The position numbers and the translations under genes were made by a program. The notes beneath the pieces were generated by a model. It saw only the letters and a list, made by a program, of their open reading frames with translations. It was not told the origin of the DNA and ran no database searches. From SAR92 bacterium MED-G29 (GTDB lineage Bacteria > Pseudomonadota > Gammaproteobacteria > Pseudomonadales > Porticoccaceae), in the NCBI GenBank assembly GCA_002457245.1, contig NTJY01000010.1, positions 1 through 33,298 of the forward strand: a stretch of DNA of 33,298 nucleotides, in the 5' to 3' direction. Shown here piece after piece: positions 4,943 through 13,047 of this stretch. Numbering within the stretch: position 1 is the first letter of the stretch; every line of letters begins with the position of its first letter.

Positions 4943-6241
4943 TTAAATAATTTCGGAATCGCGATTCTTGGAAAATCCGTAAATGATTCCGCCTAGAAAA
5001 ATAATTCCTAACCCTGCCCACGCTTCATCTGGTCTTGAGACCAATACATATCCAAGGGTCCAAACGGTCACTATTAGGTAGATGATTGGTGCAAGGGGAT
5101 ACGCAAACGTTCTATACGCGCCCTCAATAGATAGTTTCTTCTGCCGTAAAATGAAAATTCCGGCAACTGAAAATAAAGTATTTATGCCGAGTACAAAGCT
5201 AGAAAACACTAACACAGATTCAAATGTAGAGCTGATGATAAAAAGAAATGCCAAAGAACTTTGAAACATAATTGCGATTGTTGGAATACCATGACTATTT
5301 ACTCTGCTCAGAGATCTAAATGGCTTAAAGTCCTCTCCGATTACCTGAAGTACGCGTGGTCCAGCCATTGTCATGGCGCTAACCGTCGAGACTAGCAGCA
5401 CGGCCAAGATAGCGCCCATTGCTTTTCCTGCGTGATTGCCAAGGGCATAATTTGCCACAATAACGCCTATCTCTAACTCTCCCTCAATAATTTTAATTGG
5501 CACGGCATTTAGAAAGGTAAAGTTGAGCAATAAATAAATTAACATTACGAGCAGTGTCCCAACGAATAAAACAATAGGTAAATTGCGTTGAGGTTCGTCT
5601 AATTCACTAATTACATAGGTAACTGCGTTCCAACCAGTGTAAGCATAATTCACGTAAATCAGCGATATGGCGAATACTCCACTGAATAAAATATTCTCAT
5701 CGCCTAATTTAGGTACAAGAGAAATATTTTGGGGACTACTGCCCCAGAAAAAGATAATAAAACAAAATATTAATATCAAAGCTACCTTCAAAGCTGTAAA
5801 GGTTTGTTGAAATTTCCCGCTAGTTTGCCTAGAGGCACAGTGAATGACTGTTAATATTGCGAGTAGTGAGCACGCTGATAAAGTTCTTGGTATTTCAGGA
5901 AAGACGGCTGAGAGGTATGCTGCAAAGGTCATAGAAGCAAGAGCTACAGGAGCAGCAAACCCAACCGTTGCCGAGACCCATCCTGAAATAAATCCAGCGC
6001 AGGGGTGGTATAGGCGCCCAAGAAAATTATATTCGCCGCCTGATCGGGGTAAATTGGCTCCTAGCTCCGCATATGTCAGAGCCCCGCAAAGGGCGGTCAG
6101 GCCACCGATAAACCAAAGCATCATTAGTACAAAATATGATTGAATCCCCAGAAGTTGGAACCCCAGACTAGTGAAAACTCCCGTGCCAACCATATTTGCG
6201 ACAATAATCGCAATTCCTGTCGATTTTGAAAATTTTTCCAT
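4943..6241 (-). CDS. APC-superfamily amino-acid permease
   Basis: Inner-membrane transporter of 432 residues with about 12 hydrophobic helices. The N-terminus carries the APC substrate-binding loop as MVGTGVF (residues 17-23), the equivalent of G[ST]G[IV]F. The conserved ALTYAELGANLPRSGGEYNFL follows in helix 2 and its loop, as in the LAT/APA branches. It probably exchanges or imports an amino acid or amine by cation coupling; the substrate is unknown. The ATG at 6241 starts directly before the first helix. It is divergent from the DUF3604 operon, and the 146-bp region between them holds two inverted repeats. Confidence 0.9.
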   Translation of the reverse strand: MEKFSKSTGIAIIVANMVGTGVFTSLGFQLLGIQSYFVLMMLWFIGGLTALCGALTYAELGANLPRSGGEYNFLGRLYHPCAGFISGWVSATVGFAAPVALASMTFAAYLSAVFPEIPRTLSACSLLAILTVIHCASRQTSGKFQQTFTALKVALILIFCFIIFFWGSSPQNISLVPKLGDENILFSGVFAISLIYVNYAYTGWNAVTYVISELDEPQRNLPIVLFVGTLLVMLIYLLLNFTFLNAVPIKIIEGELEIGVIVANYALGNHAGKAMGAILAVLLVSTVSAMTMAGPRVLQVIGEDFKPFRSLSRVNSHGIPTIAIMFQSSLAFLFIISSTFESVLVFSSFVLGINTLFSVAGIFILRQKKLSIEGAYRTFAYPLAPIIYLIVTVWTLGYVLVSRPDEAWAGLGIIFLGGIIYGFSKNRDSEII

Positions 6242-6387: not shown

Positions 6388-8259
6388 ATGAAATTGCTTT
6401 TTGTATTGGTGTTATTAACAATCAGTATTTCAGCTTCTGCGTCAGAGCATAAAAACGTTTACTTCGGCGATACGCATCTTCACACATCCTACTCATTTGA
6501 TGCATTTTTGAATAATAATCATACTGCGGATCCAGATACTGCATATCGTTGGGCGAAAGGACAGCCGGTTATACATCCATATAATCGCACAAGAGTTCAG
6601 ATTAAAACTCCCCTAGATTTTTTGGTTGTTTCAGATCACGCCGAAATGTTAGGTGTAATGCGAGCTGTTCATGAAGGCTCTTTTGTGGAAGAAGATCTCG
6701 GCTGGTATGGCAATATTAAACGACGATATTCTTTTTGGCGGATGAATAAAGCTATTGACTCTGGCACAGGGCTGCAATTTTTCAGGCAGTTTTTACCTCA
6801 GAATCCCACTCTGGAGGGCCGCACTGATCCTGTTAAACACCCTAGTAATAATATATCTGACTTAGCAATTTTTGGAGATACATCTAAAACATCGACCTTG
6901 GCGTGGCATGACATTGTTGAAACAGCCGACCGTCACAATGACCCTGGCAACTTCTCGGCGCTTCTTGGTTGGGAGTGGAGTTCTATTCCAATGGGAGTGA
7001 ATCTCCATAGAATAGTTTTAAGTCCCGACGGTGCAGATAAGGGCAAGCAATTTCTTCCTTATGGCTCAGATAAGAGTCAATATCCAGAGGACCTTTGGGA
7101 CTGGTTAGAGACCACTCAGCAGCGAACAGGCGCAAGATTCCTTGCCATCCCCCACAATTCAAATATTTCTAAAGGCTACATGTTCGATAACACTACTCTC
7201 AAAGGAGAACCAATAACAGCAGAATACTCCCGCCGCAGAATGAAATGGGAGCCTGTTGTGGAGGTTACGCAAATCAAAGGAGACAGCGAAACTCGAAGCG
7301 ACTTCTCTCCTGATGATGAGTTTGCCGATTTTGAGAACTATGATTTTAATATTCAGGTAGGTGGAACTCCTTACAAAGCAAGGGCGGGTGACTTTGTTAG
7401 ACCTGCCCTTAAAAAAGGATTGTCAATCGAAAGAAAAGTTGGCGTGAATCCCTACAAATTTGGATTGATTGGCTCTACCGATTCACATTCAGGTCTAGCA
7501 AGTGCTGAAGAATTAAATTTTATGGGGAAGATGGCTACAGATTCTATCCCTGAGAATAAGACTAGATTGGGAAGCGGACTTGGTAGCAATGGCTGGAATA
7601 TGTCTGCATCAGGTATTGCCGCGGTTTGGGCTACTGAAAATACTCGGGATGCTATTTTTGAAGCTTTCAAAAGAAAGGAGGTTTATGCTACGTCCGGGCC
7701 CCGCATTCGATTGCAAGTTTTTGCTGGATGGAGTTTCCCAAAAAATGCGGAAATTAGTGAGGATTTTTCTAGGATAGGACATTCTTTTGGTGTTCCGATG
7801 GGCGGTGACCTAATTTCACCGAGAGAGCAAAATAGCCCGCCTAGTTTCCTGCTGAGGGCAGTAAAAGATCCTCTAGATGCTAATTTAGATCGTTTGCAGG
7901 TGATAAAAGGATGGATAGATGGTTCTGGTAGGGAGCATGAAAAGGTATACAATGTTGCTTGGTCAGATAATCGTGCACTTGACTCAGAGGGAAATCTTCC
8001 CAAAGTTGGGAACACCGTAGATCTTAGCTCAGGTCAGTTTACCAACACGATTGGTCAGTCAGAGTTCTCGTTAAAGTGGACTGATCCAGACTTTAATCCT
8101 CAGTATCAAGCTTTTTATTATGTGAGAGTGTTGCAGATACCAACCCCCAGAAATGGATTGCTTGATAGCTTAGCACTTCAATTAGATAGCCCGCCCAGAG
8201 GACCAAAGACTATTCAGGAGAGAGCATACTCTTCGCCTATATGGTATCAACCACAATAA
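6388..8259 (+). CDS. DUF3604 family exported PHP-like protein, copy 1
   Basis: A 623-residue protein of the uncharacterised DUF3604 family, with the family's usual length. A Sec signal peptide covers residues 1-19 (SASA/E), so the protein is periplasmic or secreted. Motifs look like those of PHP-type metal phosphoesterases: HxH at 30-32 in GDTHLHTSYSFDA, DHAE at 83-86, His183, His207, His256 in IPHNSN and DSH at 365-367. A metal-dependent hydrolase is therefore plausible, but the substrate is unknown. The C-terminal third ends in conserved QERAYSSPIWYQP. It is the first gene of a four-gene run, and a close paralogue starts 31 bp after its stop. The ATG at 6388 follows an ACAGGA ribosome site. 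Confidence 0.9.
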   Translation: MKLLFVLVLLTISISASASEHKNVYFGDTHLHTSYSFDAFLNNNHTADPDTAYRWAKGQPVIHPYNRTRVQIKTPLDFLVVSDHAEMLGVMRAVHEGSFVEEDLGWYGNIKRRYSFWRMNKAIDSGTGLQFFRQFLPQNPTLEGRTDPVKHPSNNISDLAIFGDTSKTSTLAWHDIVETADRHNDPGNFSALLGWEWSSIPMGVNLHRIVLSPDGADKGKQFLPYGSDKSQYPEDLWDWLETTQQRTGARFLAIPHNSNISKGYMFDNTTLKGEPITAEYSRRRMKWEPVVEVTQIKGDSETRSDFSPDDEFADFENYDFNIQVGGTPYKARAGDFVRPALKKGLSIERKVGVNPYKFGLIGSTDSHSGLASAEELNFMGKMATDSIPENKTRLGSGLGSNGWNMSASGIAAVWATENTRDAIFEAFKRKEVYATSGPRIRLQVFAGWSFPKNAEISEDFSRIGHSFGVPMGGDLISPREQNSPPSFLLRAVKDPLDANLDRLQVIKGWIDGSGREHEKVYNVAWSDNRALDSEGNLPKVGNTVDLSSGQFTNTIGQSEFSLKWTDPDFNPQYQAFYYVRVLQIPTPRNGLLDSLALQLDSPPRGPKTIQERAYSSPIWYQPQ

Positions 8260-8290
8260 ATTTGATACTAAGATTTTTTAGGAGTATTTT

Positions 8291-10165
8291 TTGATTTTTA
8301 AGCTTAAGTTAATTTCACTGCTATTTGCAGTGGCTCTTTTCTTGTACCCCCGAAACGCAGGGGCTGAAACTAAAGTCCTTTTTGGTGACACTCATGTTCA
8401 TTCTGCTTACTCATTTGATGCGTTTCTCAATGATAATCACTCCGCCTTTCCTGACGATGCTTATCGCTGGGCGAGGGGATTACCTGTTGTTCATCCTACT
8501 ACCCGTGTTAGGGCGCAAATAGAGACTCCACTAGATTTCTTAGTTGTTTCGGATCATGCGGAAGTTCTTGGTGTGATTACTGAGCTTCACTCGGACCGAA
8601 GTCTCCTCTCAGATATGGGTTGGTGGGACAGTTTTAAGCGATGGGTCACCCTTGAGATCACTGATTACTTAATCGACAGTGGGCGTGGGGAGCTGGTTTT
8701 TACCTATGGACTACCAAAGCCTGCTGTTGGGACAGGGCATGACCCGGTCGCAGATAAAAATGGTGTAGTGGTAGACGCGGGTCTGGGCGATACGACTGCG
8801 ATTAGAGAGCATGTCTGGGATGATATTATAAATGCTGCCGAAAGGCACAACCGGCCCGGTACCTTTACAAGCTTGATCGGCTGGGAGTGGACTTCTACGC
8901 CCACGGGGGCGAATCTGCACAGGGTAATTTTTACTCCTGATGGAGCTGATAAAGCGGCACAATTCTTACCCTATGGCTCGGATGATAGTCAATATCCTCA
9001 AGATTTATGGGATTGGCTTGTAGCGACTAGTAATAGAACAGGTGCCCGTTTTCTTTCGATACCTCACAACTCTAATTTATCTAAAGGCTATATGTTCGAT
9101 ACGGTCACTTTAGATGGTAGTCCAATTACCGCAGATTATGCGACGACTCGAATGTCTCTGGAGCCCGTTGCAGAGATGACTCAGGTAAAAGGAGATAGTG
9201 AATCACTCCCTAACAGTCCGGGTGATAATTTTTCAGATTTTGAGACCTATGAGTTTTATCTGCAAGCTTATGGGACGGAGTATGAATCAGATCCGGGGGA
9301 TTATGTTCGCTCGGCTCTAAAAAGAGGTCTGGCTATAGCGCAAACTGTTGGTGTCAATCCGTATAAATTTGGTTTTATTGGATCGACGGATTCTCACACT
9401 GGATTGTCCACAGCAGAGGAATACAATTTTTGGGGTAAATATCCAAATGACTCAACGCCGGAGACGAAAGATCAATCGATAATAGGAGATGCAGATAATA
9501 GTGGTTGGTCCATGTCAGCTTCAGGATTGGCAGCTGTTTGGGTAGAAGAAAATACCAGAGAAGAAATTTATGCGGCATTTAAACGCAAAGAAGTTTATGC
9601 GACAACAGGTCCAAGATTACGGCTACAAATGTTTGCCAGTTGGATGTTCCCCGACAATTCTGATCAGGCTGAAGACATATCTAAAATTGGCTACGCTTAT
9701 GGAGTCCCTATGGGTGGCGATCTCTTGCGCACGCCTGAGGCAACGACACCAAAATTTTTAATTCGAGCAGTGAAGGATCCTCTCGGTGCAAATTTGGATC
9801 GTGTCCAGATTATTAAAGGTTGGTTAGATGAAAAAGGGCAACAGCATGAAAAAGTACACAATATTGCTTGGTCTCCGGGACGTCTACTCGATGATAATAA
9901 CAACCTCCCCAAGGTAGGAAATACGGTAGATTTAGATACTGGTCGGTATACCAATAGTATTGGAACCCCCGCACTCTCTGTAATGTGGCAGGATCCTGAT
10001 TTCGATCCTAATCAGAGAGCATTTTATTATGCGCGAGTTCTTCAAATACCTACTGCTAGACACTCCCTATTTGATACTATCGCTCTTCAAGCAGGTGACT
10101 TGGCTAATGGACCCACTACTATTCAGGAGCGCGCCTATACCTCCCCGATCTGGTACACACCCTAA
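8291..10165 (+). CDS. DUF3604 family exported PHP-like protein, copy 2
   Basis: A 624-residue tandem paralogue of the preceding gene, collinear over its whole length. The TTG start at 8291 follows a TAGGAGT ribosome site. The signal peptide covers residues 1-25 (AGA/E). All putative metal ligands are retained: HxH 35-37, DHAE 88-91, His259 in IPHNSN and DSH 367-369. The ending QERAYTSPIWYTP is nearly the same as in copy 1. The two proteins match closely around the ligands but differ at about residues 95-165, which may shape the substrate pocket. Both copies are intact and the gap is only 31 bp, so they are probably co-expressed. Function is unknown beyond a likely metal-dependent hydrolase. 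Confidence 0.9.
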   Translation: MIFKLKLISLLFAVALFLYPRNAGAETKVLFGDTHVHSAYSFDAFLNDNHSAFPDDAYRWARGLPVVHPTTRVRAQIETPLDFLVVSDHAEVLGVITELHSDRSLLSDMGWWDSFKRWVTLEITDYLIDSGRGELVFTYGLPKPAVGTGHDPVADKNGVVVDAGLGDTTAIREHVWDDIINAAERHNRPGTFTSLIGWEWTSTPTGANLHRVIFTPDGADKAAQFLPYGSDDSQYPQDLWDWLVATSNRTGARFLSIPHNSNLSKGYMFDTVTLDGSPITADYATTRMSLEPVAEMTQVKGDSESLPNSPGDNFSDFETYEFYLQAYGTEYESDPGDYVRSALKRGLAIAQTVGVNPYKFGFIGSTDSHTGLSTAEEYNFWGKYPNDSTPETKDQSIIGDADNSGWSMSASGLAAVWVEENTREEIYAAFKRKEVYATTGPRLRLQMFASWMFPDNSDQAEDISKIGYAYGVPMGGDLLRTPEATTPKFLIRAVKDPLGANLDRVQIIKGWLDEKGQQHEKVHNIAWSPGRLLDDNNNLPKVGNTVDLDTGRYTNSIGTPALSVMWQDPDFDPNQRAFYYARVLQIPTARHSLFDTIALQAGDLANGPTTIQERAYTSPIWYTP

Positions 10166-10196
10166 ATTAGAGTAGTGATAAAAAAGTAAACTTCTT

Positions 10197-11108
10197 ATGC
10201 TGATCAACACTTCATTTATTCAATTAACCAGGGAGCCGCTGTTACATTTTGTTGTAATAGCGGCTTTGCTGATAGGCGGTGAGCGATGGATCAATGCGGA
10301 CAGATATGCTGACACCGATTACTCAATACTAGTAGATGACAAGGTACTTTCCCAATATTTGCAACAGCAAGCCAAAACCTTCAGGTCAGAGCAAGCGAAA
10401 AGAGCTCTGGCGGGGATGAATGATGATCAGTATCAAAAATTAGTTGACGATTATGTGCGGGGAGAGGTTTTGTATCGAGAGGCAGTTAAACTGGGCCTGG
10501 ATCGTGATGATCCAATTATTCGGAGGCGCTTAATCCAAAAAATGGATTACTTGTCTCAAGGGTTTTATGATCAAGTTGAAAAGATTACTGAAGCAGATTT
10601 AATTGACTTTTTTAATCGAAGAAAAGAGGACTACAGAGAGCCTGCGAGTGCTACATTTACGCATATCTTCATCTCGAGTCAGGTTGGCTCCTTTGAGAAT
10701 AATAGATTGGATGCTTTAGCGTTGCTTGACGTGGCGAATAAAAGTAATGTTCCTTTTGAAAATGCGGGGCGCTACGGCGATCGATTTCTGTATAACAGAA
10801 ATTATGTCAACCGAGATAGTCAAGAAATCACCAGCCACTTCGGTAAAAAATTTGAACAGCAGTTGTTTGAGCTGGAGGCAGTAAACCCTAACTCCAATGA
10901 ACTTTGGCAAGGTCCGTTAAGATCGGATTATGGTTGGCATCTAGTCTTACTAACCAAACTTTCTGACTCTAGTGTTCCAGCTCTCTCCGAAATTAGCGGA
11001 ATAGTACTAGGGGACGCTCAGCGTGAGCAGCAAGCAGAGGTAAAACGCCAGGCTATTGATAAACTTCGTGAAAAATATCGATTAGATCTAAGGGCGAGAA
11101 GTAATTGA
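10197..11108 (+). CDS. Membrane-anchored PpiC-like peptidyl-prolyl isomerase
   Basis: A 303-residue protein with one N-terminal membrane segment at about residues 16-29 (LLHFVVIAALLIG) and the rest periplasmic. A SurA/PpiD-like helical region covers about 40-130 with YQKLVDDYVRGEVLYREAVKLG. A divergent parvulin domain follows at about 150-255, seen in ATFTHIFIS, the block near YGDRF, and LWQGPLRSDYGWHLVLLT. This fits a peptidyl-prolyl cis-trans isomerase or chaperone. It starts 31 bp after the second DUF3604 gene and overlaps the HupE/UreJ-type gene by 4 bp. That coupling suggests a dedicated folding helper for the exported or membrane proteins of this cluster, which is inference. Confidence 0.85.
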   Translation: MLINTSFIQLTREPLLHFVVIAALLIGGERWINADRYADTDYSILVDDKVLSQYLQQQAKTFRSEQAKRALAGMNDDQYQKLVDDYVRGEVLYREAVKLGLDRDDPIIRRRLIQKMDYLSQGFYDQVEKITEADLIDFFNRRKEDYREPASATFTHIFISSQVGSFENNRLDALALLDVANKSNVPFENAGRYGDRFLYNRNYVNRDSQEITSHFGKKFEQQLFELEAVNPNSNELWQGPLRSDYGWHLVLLTKLSDSSVPALSEISGIVLGDAQREQQAEVKRQAIDKLREKYRLDLRARSN

Positions 11109-12103
11109 TAAAGGACCTTTGTCTCCTGTTGAGCCTTTTAGTTATCCCCATGTTTAGCTTGGCCGATGAAGCAAGGCCCGTGTATGTGGAAGTTAACCAA
11201 ATTTCACAGCAAGAGTATTCTGTGCAATGGAAAATTCCGCCAGTGATAAGAGCTGGAGATGAGCCCAGCATCATTCTCTCTAATGACAGTTGCGCGGCTA
11301 AAGCTATCAGCTCCAAGACTGGATTATTGGGAAAGTCATTTTATTACTGCAGCGAAGCGAATGTAGCTTTTGATATAACGCTTGATTATCCTCGAGGAAA
11401 TCCGGCTCTAACTTCTTTGGTGGTCTTTAAGTCTCCTTACACTGAACCTCAACAAATATTTTCTGGACCAGAGATAACTAGCATACCACTGGGTCAATCT
11501 CAGAGTTCTATTGACGTATCGGAACAATATCTTATTGCGGGTATTGAACATATTTTGGTGGGCTATGATCACTTACTTTTCATTTTATGCCTTATGATTA
11601 TTGCCAGCGGTTTTAAAAGATTACTGTTAACAGTGACGGGTTTTACTGTAGCTCACTCAATCACGCTAAGCTTAGCATCACTAAATATTATTAGGGTCAG
11701 AACTGAGCTTGTTGAGTTACTAATAGCGCTGAGTATTCTCTTGCTGGCTGTTGAAATTATCAAACATTATCGAGTTAAGAACTACGAGAGCTTTACATGG
11801 CGATACCCCATTACTGCATCGTCAGTATTTGGTCTTTTGCATGGGTTTGGCTTTGCTGTTGTTTTGCAAGAACTGGGTCTGCCGCAGTCAATGAAAATTC
11901 ATGCGCTTCTATTTTTTAATATTGGTGTAGAGATCGGGCAGATTATGTTTATTAGTGGAATGGCGATCCTTGGCTACTTTGTTTCCAAGTTCCTACTGAA
12001 GATCAGTGTAAAAAGAGAAATATTTGTTCAGTTTGCTGTTTATTTGATAGGTATTTCCAGCGCCTATTGGCTTTTTGAGAGAAGTTCAGCCATCTTTCTA
12101 TAA
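11105..12103 (+). CDS. HupE/UreJ-2-type membrane protein with periplasmic N-terminal domain
   Basis: A 332-residue protein. A signal-like segment at 1-20 is followed by a periplasmic domain of about 115 residues with three cysteines, then about seven membrane helices from residue 142. The membrane part has the HupE/UreJ-2 motifs GIEHILVGYDHLLF (His149, Asp155, His156), GFTVAHSITLSLASL (His184), LLHGFGFA (His246) and FNIGVEIGQ (Glu276). These conserved His and acidic residues suggest metal handling, by analogy with HupE/UreJ nickel permeases; for this branch the function is not established. The TTG start overlaps the preceding stop as TTGA, so translation is coupled. No hydrogenase or urease genes are present. 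It is the last gene of the DUF3604 unit. Confidence 0.86.
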   Translation: MIKDLCLLLSLLVIPMFSLADEARPVYVEVNQISQQEYSVQWKIPPVIRAGDEPSIILSNDSCAAKAISSKTGLLGKSFYYCSEANVAFDITLDYPRGNPALTSLVVFKSPYTEPQQIFSGPEITSIPLGQSQSSIDVSEQYLIAGIEHILVGYDHLLFILCLMIIASGFKRLLLTVTGFTVAHSITLSLASLNIIRVRTELVELLIALSILLLAVEIIKHYRVKNYESFTWRYPITASSVFGLLHGFGFAVVLQELGLPQSMKIHALLFFNIGVEIGQIMFISGMAILGYFVSKFLLKISVKREIFVQFAVYLIGISSAYWLFERSSAIFL

Positions 12104-12119: not shown

Positions 12120-12923
12120 TTACTTAAGATGTCCCAAATATTTGGAGACAATTCTCAGAGTAGGTTTAAATAATTTTGGCGTGGTCGCAATAATGTGGCC
12201 GGACCTCAGGAAAGACTCGCCTCCCTGAAAGTCGCTTACTAAACCTCCAGCCTCTCTCACTATGAGTGCTCCTGCAGCAATATCCCAAGGTTTGAGGTGC
12301 ATCTCCCAGAAAACATCAGTTCGACCTGCTGCCAAGTAGGCAAGATCGAGCGAGGCAACTCCAAGGCGCCTTATGCCCGATGAGTTGTCTGCAAAATCAT
12401 ACATGCAGGCTAAGTAGTTAGACATTTCATCAAATGATGGCTTGCTGAAAGGAATGCCGGTCGCATAAAGTGCTCCTGCCTCCTCTAGCCGCCCAGATAC
12501 GCGTATCCTGCGACCATTTAGCTTAGCCCCATCACCTCTGCTTGCTGTAAATTCCTCATGTTTGAAGGGCTCCACAACTACTGCATGCTCTAAGCGACCT
12601 TTCAGTCTACAAGCGATTGATACAGCGACATGGGGAATTCCCCTCACAAAGTTCGTGGTCCCATCCAGAGGATCTATAATCCATTCAAAGTCACTATTGT
12701 CATTTCCGCTTTGTCCCCCCTCCTCTCCAAGAAACCGGTGATCAGGATATGCTTTTTTAATTTGTTCTATAATTAGCTCTTCGGACCGCCGATCAACCTC
12801 TGTAACAAAGTCATGACGGCCTTTCTCATCGACTTTTACGGAGTCCAGATTATCAGCAGCCTTGACGATCATTTCACCGGCCTGACGCGCAGCGCGAAGA
12901 GCAATGTTGACCATCGGTTGCAT
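12120..12923 (-). CDS. suhB: Inositol-1-monophosphatase SuhB
   Basis: Mg2+-dependent inositol monophosphatase; in E. coli the same protein also joins the rRNA antitermination complex. The start is set at 12923, where the protein begins MQPMVNIALRAARQAG, matching E. coli MHPMLNIAVRAARKAG; this gives 267 residues. A longer reading frame to 13004 adds 27 residues with no family counterpart. Metal-site motifs are GEEGG near residues 69-73, the WIDPLDGTTNF block near 84-94, and a C-terminal LKPWDIAAGALIVREAGG. It is divergent from trmJ, as in E. coli, and converges on the HupE-type gene with 16 bp between the stops. Confidence 0.95.
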   Translation of the reverse strand: MQPMVNIALRAARQAGEMIVKAADNLDSVKVDEKGRHDFVTEVDRRSEELIIEQIKKAYPDHRFLGEEGGQSGNDNSDFEWIIDPLDGTTNFVRGIPHVAVSIACRLKGRLEHAVVVEPFKHEEFTASRGDGAKLNGRRIRVSGRLEEAGALYATGIPFSKPSFDEMSNYLACMYDFADNSSGIRRLGVASLDLAYLAAGRTDVFWEMHLKPWDIAAGALIVREAGGLVSDFQGGESFLRSGHIIATTPKLFKPTLRIVSKYLGHLK

Positions 12924-13047
12924 ATTAAATTTCCAAGTTGAAAGTTGACGGCGCGCATTGTACCAGACATATCTGATTCTGATACACTCGGGCCAAGTCT
13001 TCACAGACCTCTCAAGTCCGAGATTATGAATTATTTAGGGGAACTAT

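Follow-up and report, generated by a model that had tools for sequence, protein, structure and literature searches.

Linked DUF3604, parvulin, and HupE_UreJ_2 genes in a SAR92 bacterium suggest a dedicated route for the folding and metalation of extracytoplasmic enzymes

Why two proteins of the DUF3604 family, to which Pfam assigns no function, should be encoded together with a parvulin and a HupE_UreJ_2 membrane protein is the question raised by positions 6388–12103 of a 33,298-nucleotide stretch of DNA from SAR92 bacterium MED-G29 (contig NTJY01000010.1; the whole stretch is hereafter designated the window). It bears on a wider question as well, namely how the right metal reaches enzymes outside the cytoplasm, a process for which few helpers are known. 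The unit is composed of the following four genes, designated D1, D2, P, and H (D referring to DUF3604 genes or proteins in general).

6388–8259, + strand: D1, a DUF3604 protein of 623 residues with an ATG start (Pfam and structure model)
8291–10165, + strand: D2, a DUF3604 paralogue of 624 residues with a TTG start (Pfam)
10197–11108, + strand: P, a divergent parvulin (Rotamase_2) of 303 residues with an ATG start and, by reading, a hydrophobic N-terminal stretch
11105–12103, + strand: H, a HupE_UreJ_2 protein of 332 residues with a TTG start (Pfam and structure model)

D1 and D2 are separated by 31 base pairs (bp), the same distance lies between D2 and P, and P and H have TTGA in common in a 4-bp overlap. 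This same-strand layout had been given in the original prediction, which was made from the letters of the window, and a check of the open reading frames (ORFs) reproduced its coordinates exactly. The closest named relatives of the unit are bacteria of the SAR92 clade and the Porticoccaceae, with a best tblastn identity for D1 of 78% (locus L053). We consider it quite possible, though short of probable, that D1 and D2 are exported metallohydrolases encoded with their own foldase, P, and their own metal carrier, H.

Linkage of the D, P, and H genes

Co-occurrence was examined in a same-class sample of 274 genomes and a same-phylum sample of 200, both of which include the window's genome and share some others; their class and phylum labels were deduced from named relatives of the window. 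Genome counts rest on search tables, since the gene caller misses genes in loci with a high guanine-cytosine content, and adjacency was read by eye from match tables, except for the computed co-occurrence counts. In the same-class sample, DUF3604 was found in 26 genomes and HupE_UreJ_2 in 79, and a profile of P (31 rows) matched 23 genomes, 14 of them above 70 bits, the other matches reaching at most 58 bits and lying mostly in ORFs of 640–693 residues. H adjoins P at 13 of these 14 places (all but that in genome G138) and D at 11; a weaker P match in G229 (51 bits, over a stop codon) also adjoins H. Counted by genome, P above 70 bits occurs in 13 of the 18 genomes that have D above 100 bits, versus one of the 256 others (p = 2e-17, kinship ignored). 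The same-phylum sample gave DUF3604 in 12 genomes, HupE_UreJ_2 in 38, and P in 24. Both H and D are adjacent at all 13 P places above 100 bits (10 genomes including the window's), D being only a remnant in G423, and P above this score occurs in 10 of the 11 genomes with D above 100 bits versus none of the remaining 189 (p = 5e-16, kinship again ignored). The P matches in G350 and G025 each cross one stop codon.

Similar linkage was seen in named DUF3604 loci. Among the best 80 of 204, which were those examined, D, P, and H occur together in 44, D and P in 5, and D alone in 31, several of the last lying at contig ends. The D-D-P-H order of the window is found in 12 of the 80, while elsewhere P-H stands ahead of D, or D is divergent from or convergent to P-H (L034, L038, L042, L044, L099, L132, G331, and G334 exemplify another order or another place). 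P and H genes on the same strand are packed tightly: of 67 pairs, 59 overlap (by 4 bp in 28 cases and by 1 bp in 19), and none of the remaining 8 is more than 50 bp apart. D and P are less tightly spaced, with 12 of 65 pairs overlapping, 29 at 0–50 bp, and 24 at 51–200 bp; the mechanical assignment of ORF starts inflates both overlap counts. D, P, and H also occur in the marine gamma proteobacterium HTCC2207 (locus L069).

The linkage was also traced on trees, both of which carry long-branch warnings. Mapped onto a quick tree of 120 D proteins, the label "with P and H" requires 16 changes versus 29.6 in shuffles, and at least 12 of these changes are forced by starred branches, indicating that the link of D to P and H is not one inherited neighborhood. 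The corresponding tree of 131 H proteins gives 10 changes of the label "with P and D" (at least 5 forced) versus 43.7 in shuffles; H proteins with this linkage come close to forming a single subfamily. Collectively, a chance neighborhood is ruled out by the repeated D-P-H adjacency across the samples and named loci, and so is a single inherited neighborhood, for the flanks are kept within SAR92, yet D, P, and H are joined elsewhere in other orders. The conserved co-occurrence of these families that had been predicted is thus borne out by the gene-neighborhood check, D, P, and H being adjacent over large distances in both samples and in the named loci.

The flanks of the window unit are as follows.

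4943–6241, opposite strand: amino acid permease (cluster recurring in 34 examined loci)
12120–13004, opposite strand: inositol-monophosphatase family protein (cluster recurring in 29 examined loci)

Promoter-like and terminator-like sites around the unit showed no excess over shuffled sequence, so that co-transcription is presumed solely on the grounds of gene spacing and conservation. The source genome, 80% complete and in 53 contigs, has a third DUF3604 gene (L003, 1489–3741 of contig 51) with a lipobox-like sequence and a neighboring short-chain dehydrogenase gene, both recognized by reading; neither P nor H was found in the 4.9 kilobases (kb) of surrounding sequence that were examined.

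Three loci elsewhere depart from the full set. In L202 (G423, contig C12), P and H are accompanied by what is left of a DUF3604 gene, a match of 96 positions interrupted by an in-frame stop. L193 (280–2021; G264, contig C24) holds an N-terminally short P together with H, and DUF3604 was not found in that genome, which is 97% complete. In L043 (8037–9023; G012, contig C2), an ORF of approximately 330 residues combines matches to the beginning of DUF3604 and to the final part of HupE_UreJ_2, and may be a deletion remnant of a D-P-H-like unit.

Predicted properties of the D, P, and H proteins

D1 and D2, which are 59% identical and have their ligand candidates in common, cover the DUF3604 profile (PF12228) nearly fully at 750.4 and 733.8 bits, respectively (Pfam cut-off, 20.4). 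The structure model of D1, with a mean predicted local distance difference test score (pLDDT) of 93.4, comprises a PHP-like hydrolase domain followed by a C-terminal beta-rich domain. In the PDB, the model is matched best by 3e38, a protein of two domains and PHP-like type (E = 1.4e-6; probability, 1.00), whose two chains are the only matches at E ≤ 0.001; the template modeling score by target is 0.44 and the identity 10%, and the root mean square deviation of 13.8 suggests that the domains are probably placed differently in D1 and 3e38. Ligand candidates lie at or just past strand ends of the model, namely H30 and H32 (strand 23–31), D83 and H84 (78–81), E196 (189–197), H256 (252–255), E292 (290–292), and D365 and H367 (359–361). 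In an alignment of 120 D homologues (94 linked and 26 solo), H30, H84, E196, E292, D365, and H367 are kept in all 120, and H32, D83, H207, H256 (one residue unread), and E301 in 119; E86, the Glu of DHxE, is Glu in 103, the remainder being mostly Asp. Thus, the HxH, DHxE, H, and DxH ligands listed in the original prediction are present in D1 and D2 and, apart from E86, conserved in 119–120 of 120 homologues, and the PHP-like nature that it ascribed to DUF3604 agrees with the predicted structure.

A Sec-type signal peptide was recognized in D1 by reading, the helix position in the model also being used, and a loose twin-arginine-like motif occurs in 8 of 136 D ORFs. The D1 model and the nearly invariant set of ligand candidates suggest that D1 and D2 are exported, PHP-like metallohydrolases. 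Among described enzymes, the CehA/McbA metallohydrolases (NF038032) resemble the D proteins in giving a weak profile match, and the carbaryl hydrolase encoded by mcbA is described as periplasmic in an excerpt of PMC11302072; however, D1 and D2 score 13.6 and 20 bits and do not reach the cut-off of 80, and this identity was rejected.

With 31.2 bits against a cut-off of 27, the match of P to Rotamase_2 is modest; the profile of P matches Cell-binding factor 2 (3rfw; E = 1.1e-11) and HP_0175 (5ez1; E = 9.8e-6) over the N-terminal helices and the parvulin domain. Among the parvulin residues, S243 and H248 are invariant and H156 is kept in at least 90%. P would share its extracytoplasmic location with the parvulins PrsA, 3rfw, and HP_0175, but it differs from them in its divergent central motif and in being tied to one enzyme family. 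The third gene is accordingly the membrane-anchored parvulin-like protein that had been predicted, with the anchor recognized by reading, and its kinship with Rotamase_2, 3rfw, and HP_0175 is consistent with the proposed help in folding of D.

H matches HupE_UreJ_2 (PF13795) at 151.3 bits (cut-off, 24.5) and HupE_UreJ at 33.7 bits (cut-off, 23). Its model (mean pLDDT, 87.5) shows a signal helix, an exported beta-sandwich (strands within 26–129), and a helical membrane domain (135–331) with nine helices of four or more residues, and H149, D155, H156, E204, E217, H246, N272, E276, and Q279 are invariant in 27 rows. These features match the earlier description of a polytopic protein with conserved His, Asp, and Glu residues and a periplasmic domain, and metal handling, proposed at the same time, is judged to be the likeliest role of H. 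HupE/UreJ relatives are described as nickel permeases or accumulators in excerpts of two reports (PMC12537917 and PMC5557971). The former, a 2025 paper, also describes HupE/UreJ-2 proteins with exported "anglerase" metal-binding domains, probably differing in type from that of H, that start with His and bind copper and nickel, and it gives metallophosphatases as frequent among the neighbors of the Ang-2 type.

Like H, the anglerases Ang-1 and Ang-2, fused to HupE/UreJ-2 (PF13795), combine a signal peptide, an exported beta-sandwich, and a HupE_UreJ_2 membrane domain. The window H differs from them in having Asp instead of His after the signal, in lacking a sequence match to 9gce (the solved anglerase domain), and in its linkage to P and D. 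By motif reading, the mature N terminus of the window and SAR92 H proteins is A/DEARP or S/DEARP (the slash marking its start), and several other P-linked H proteins have A/HEGRP. No sequence match to 9gce was obtained with the window H, the H profile, or the H of L088, whereas the H of L168, a His-type relative serving as the positive control, matched at E = 1.4e-8; by sequence, H thus does not appear to be a 9gce-type anglerase, and the exported domain of the window H is probably of another type.

Neighboring genes and alternative roles of the unit

SAR92 loci keep the same neighbors and give little information on the substrate. Outside SAR92, a survey covered genes no more than three positions away from a D cassette, whether or not P and H accompany it. 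Of 247 such neighbors, 115 were scanned (150 taken, from loci up to L113, with 35 left out, mostly short or very long and including the RND gene of L090), as were 115 of 187 control genes (150 random, with 35 left out for their length or as the last of the list). The D neighbors included 6 SDR, 5 acyl-CoA dehydrogenases, 5 AraC-type regulators with Arabinose_bd, 3 thiolases, 3 sulfatases, and 2 each of the alkyl-sulfatase dimerization domain, wax ester synthase, CoA transferase III, Abhydrolase_3, and GMC oxidoreductase; efflux-type families were also present (3 HlyD_D23 and 2 OEP). The controls included 2 SDR, and the other families named here were not among the 25 listed for them. This set of neighbors suggests a role in the catabolism of esters or lipids, a minority of the contexts being of the metal-efflux kind, and since it does not suggest a phosphatase, that activity seems not to be favored for D. 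The same catabolic neighbors would fit an ordinary catabolic operon, in which a nutrient ester would be cleaved by D and the product taken up through H, with no link to metals. Such an operon would leave P without a special role, and the invariant His, Asp, and Glu residues in the helices of H, together with the metal handling of its relatives, make it very improbable.

HupE_UreJ_2 genes away from D were surveyed in 60 regions, part of the same-class places, in 55 of which the H gene was recovered. P stands beside H in 2 of the 60, both in genomes with DUF3604 elsewhere. Recurring neighbors within two genes of H included DUF6488 (11 slots), a protein of approximately 640 residues (11), DUF3240 (10), a protein without a Pfam match (7), DUF4331 (4), DUF4198 (4), and RND efflux proteins (3). 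SoxB is a dinuclear manganese enzyme, and the 640-residue neighbor was assigned to it by the NCBIfam equivalog in all four cases scanned (709–723 bits; cut-off, 550). Among the matches listed for the same-class sample, 20 of 27 long-form SoxB proteins (25 broken by an insertion, and two of 678 and 685 bits) are encoded within 4 kb of an H gene, and none of the 90 ordinary uninterrupted SoxB proteins is beside H, 4 being on an H contig with the nearest 13 kb away; these counts were made by hand, with weaker and partial rows, such as that of G099, left out. Loci with a long-form, twin-arginine SoxB-like protein near HupE_UreJ_2 include L166, L167, L172, L176, L178, L179, L180, L182, L184, L186, L189, and L192, the four scanned cases being among these 12, and the SoxB-linked H proteins of this set that have a readable start show Asp after the signal. 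The SoxB-like parallel supports the notion that H serves exported metallohydrolases, not that it does so by one mechanism.

Two further roles for H have to be weighed against metal loading. In metal export or tolerance, H would be an efflux or storage carrier merely co-regulated with an envelope hydrolase and a foldase. HupE_UreJ_2 genes indeed adjoin RND, DUF3240, and DUF6488 genes, RND genes lie near D cassettes in three loci, HlyD_D23 and OEP occur among the D neighbors as noted above, and a gene with a HupE/UreJ domain is given as the most strongly nickel-induced gene of Sphingobium sp. ba1 in an excerpt of PMC5557971. We nevertheless regard this role as decidedly unlikely, given that H proteins with P and D linkage almost make up a subfamily of their own and that the neighbors common to the strong P places are D and H. 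In metal scavenging, D would cleave a periplasmic organic metal complex or ligand, H would import the freed metal, and P would help D. Two points speak for it: relatives of H are described in PMC12537917 as nickel permeases that capture metal by means of an exported domain, and HupE_UreJ_2 genes adjoin DUF4198, which the same paper calls a nickel-binding protein. D often occurs without H, however, and SDR, acyl-CoA dehydrogenase, and AraC proteins are the commonest D neighbors outside SAR92, although RND, HlyD_D23, and OEP occur as well; scavenging is thus unlikely in our estimation.

Metal loading as the proposed role

If D1 and D2 are metallohydrolases loaded by H and folded with P, D would leave the translocon and be kept foldable by P, a PrsA-like foldase facing the periplasm, and on the periplasmic side of the membrane D would receive a divalent transition metal (Mn, Zn, Co, or Ni) from H, whose exported domain would serve for docking or transfer. 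Because D would fold in the periplasm and HupE/UreJ relatives are described as permeases or accumulators, such a supply would require either that the metal be exported or that it be handed over on the periplasmic side. With less confidence, the substrate of D may be a lipophilic nutrient in which a bond of the ester type (carboxylic, carbamic, or sulfuric ester) is hydrolyzed, as by the periplasmic carbaryl hydrolase, and D1 and D2 may act on different substrates.

The closest functional precedent for this mechanism would be provided by the TerC proteins MeeF and MeeY of Bacillus subtilis, which, according to an excerpt of PMC10550928, load manganese into exported enzymes and co-immunoprecipitate with PrsA. 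As in the proposed unit, a membrane metal carrier metalates exported enzymes in association with a foldase; TerC is, however, another protein family and serves several clients. By this analogy, the D-P-H unit would bring enzyme, foldase, and carrier of such a system together in a single package.

Several observations weigh against metal loading by a dedicated partner. P and H lack an adjacent D in 3 of the 14 same-class genomes (D lies elsewhere in G005 and G244, and DUF3604 was not found in G264), and D and P occur without H in G138 and in the 5 named loci mentioned above. DUF3604 without nearby P or H is common, as in the 31 named loci with D alone (some at contig ends) and in 26 of 136 rows that are clearly solo and have the same ligand candidates; the P and H helpers are therefore not always needed, or they act in trans. 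The RND efflux genes near the D cassettes of L090, L092, and L118 fit metal efflux, relatives of H are described as uptake permeases, and by motif reading the mature window H starts with Asp and not with the copper-binding His of the anglerases. Moreover, DUF6488 and DUF3240 are as frequent beside HupE_UreJ_2 as the SoxB-like proteins, and twin-arginine motifs, present in 12 of the 12 SoxB-like proteins read, suggest folding before export, so that H need not act alike for D and for the SoxB-like proteins.

A broader proposal, which we hold as possible but rather doubtful, is that HupE_UreJ_2 proteins are not only uptake permeases and that their subfamilies are partner-specific metal-loading devices for exported metallohydrolases, DUF3604 with a dedicated parvulin being one case and the SoxB-like proteins another. 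No description of the D-P-H unit was found in the open-access literature, where the search met DUF3604 in a table row only, and within that literature the unit can still be called undescribed, as the original prediction had done; judged by titles and the beginnings of abstracts, open-access searches returned nothing relevant on UreJ with a prolyl isomerase or DUF3604, and nothing on the pairing of SoxB with HupE.

The D-P-H linkage suggests that the folding and metal loading of extracytoplasmic enzymes may have a dedicated route. With a three-family cassette kept across the phylum and solo DUF3604 genes for comparison, both the function of DUF3604 and extracytoplasmic metalation become testable, and the cassette offers a handle on the role of the exported domains of HupE_UreJ_2 proteins. 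If partner-specific loading is true, the window unit would amount to a self-contained module for both exo-metalation and folding.

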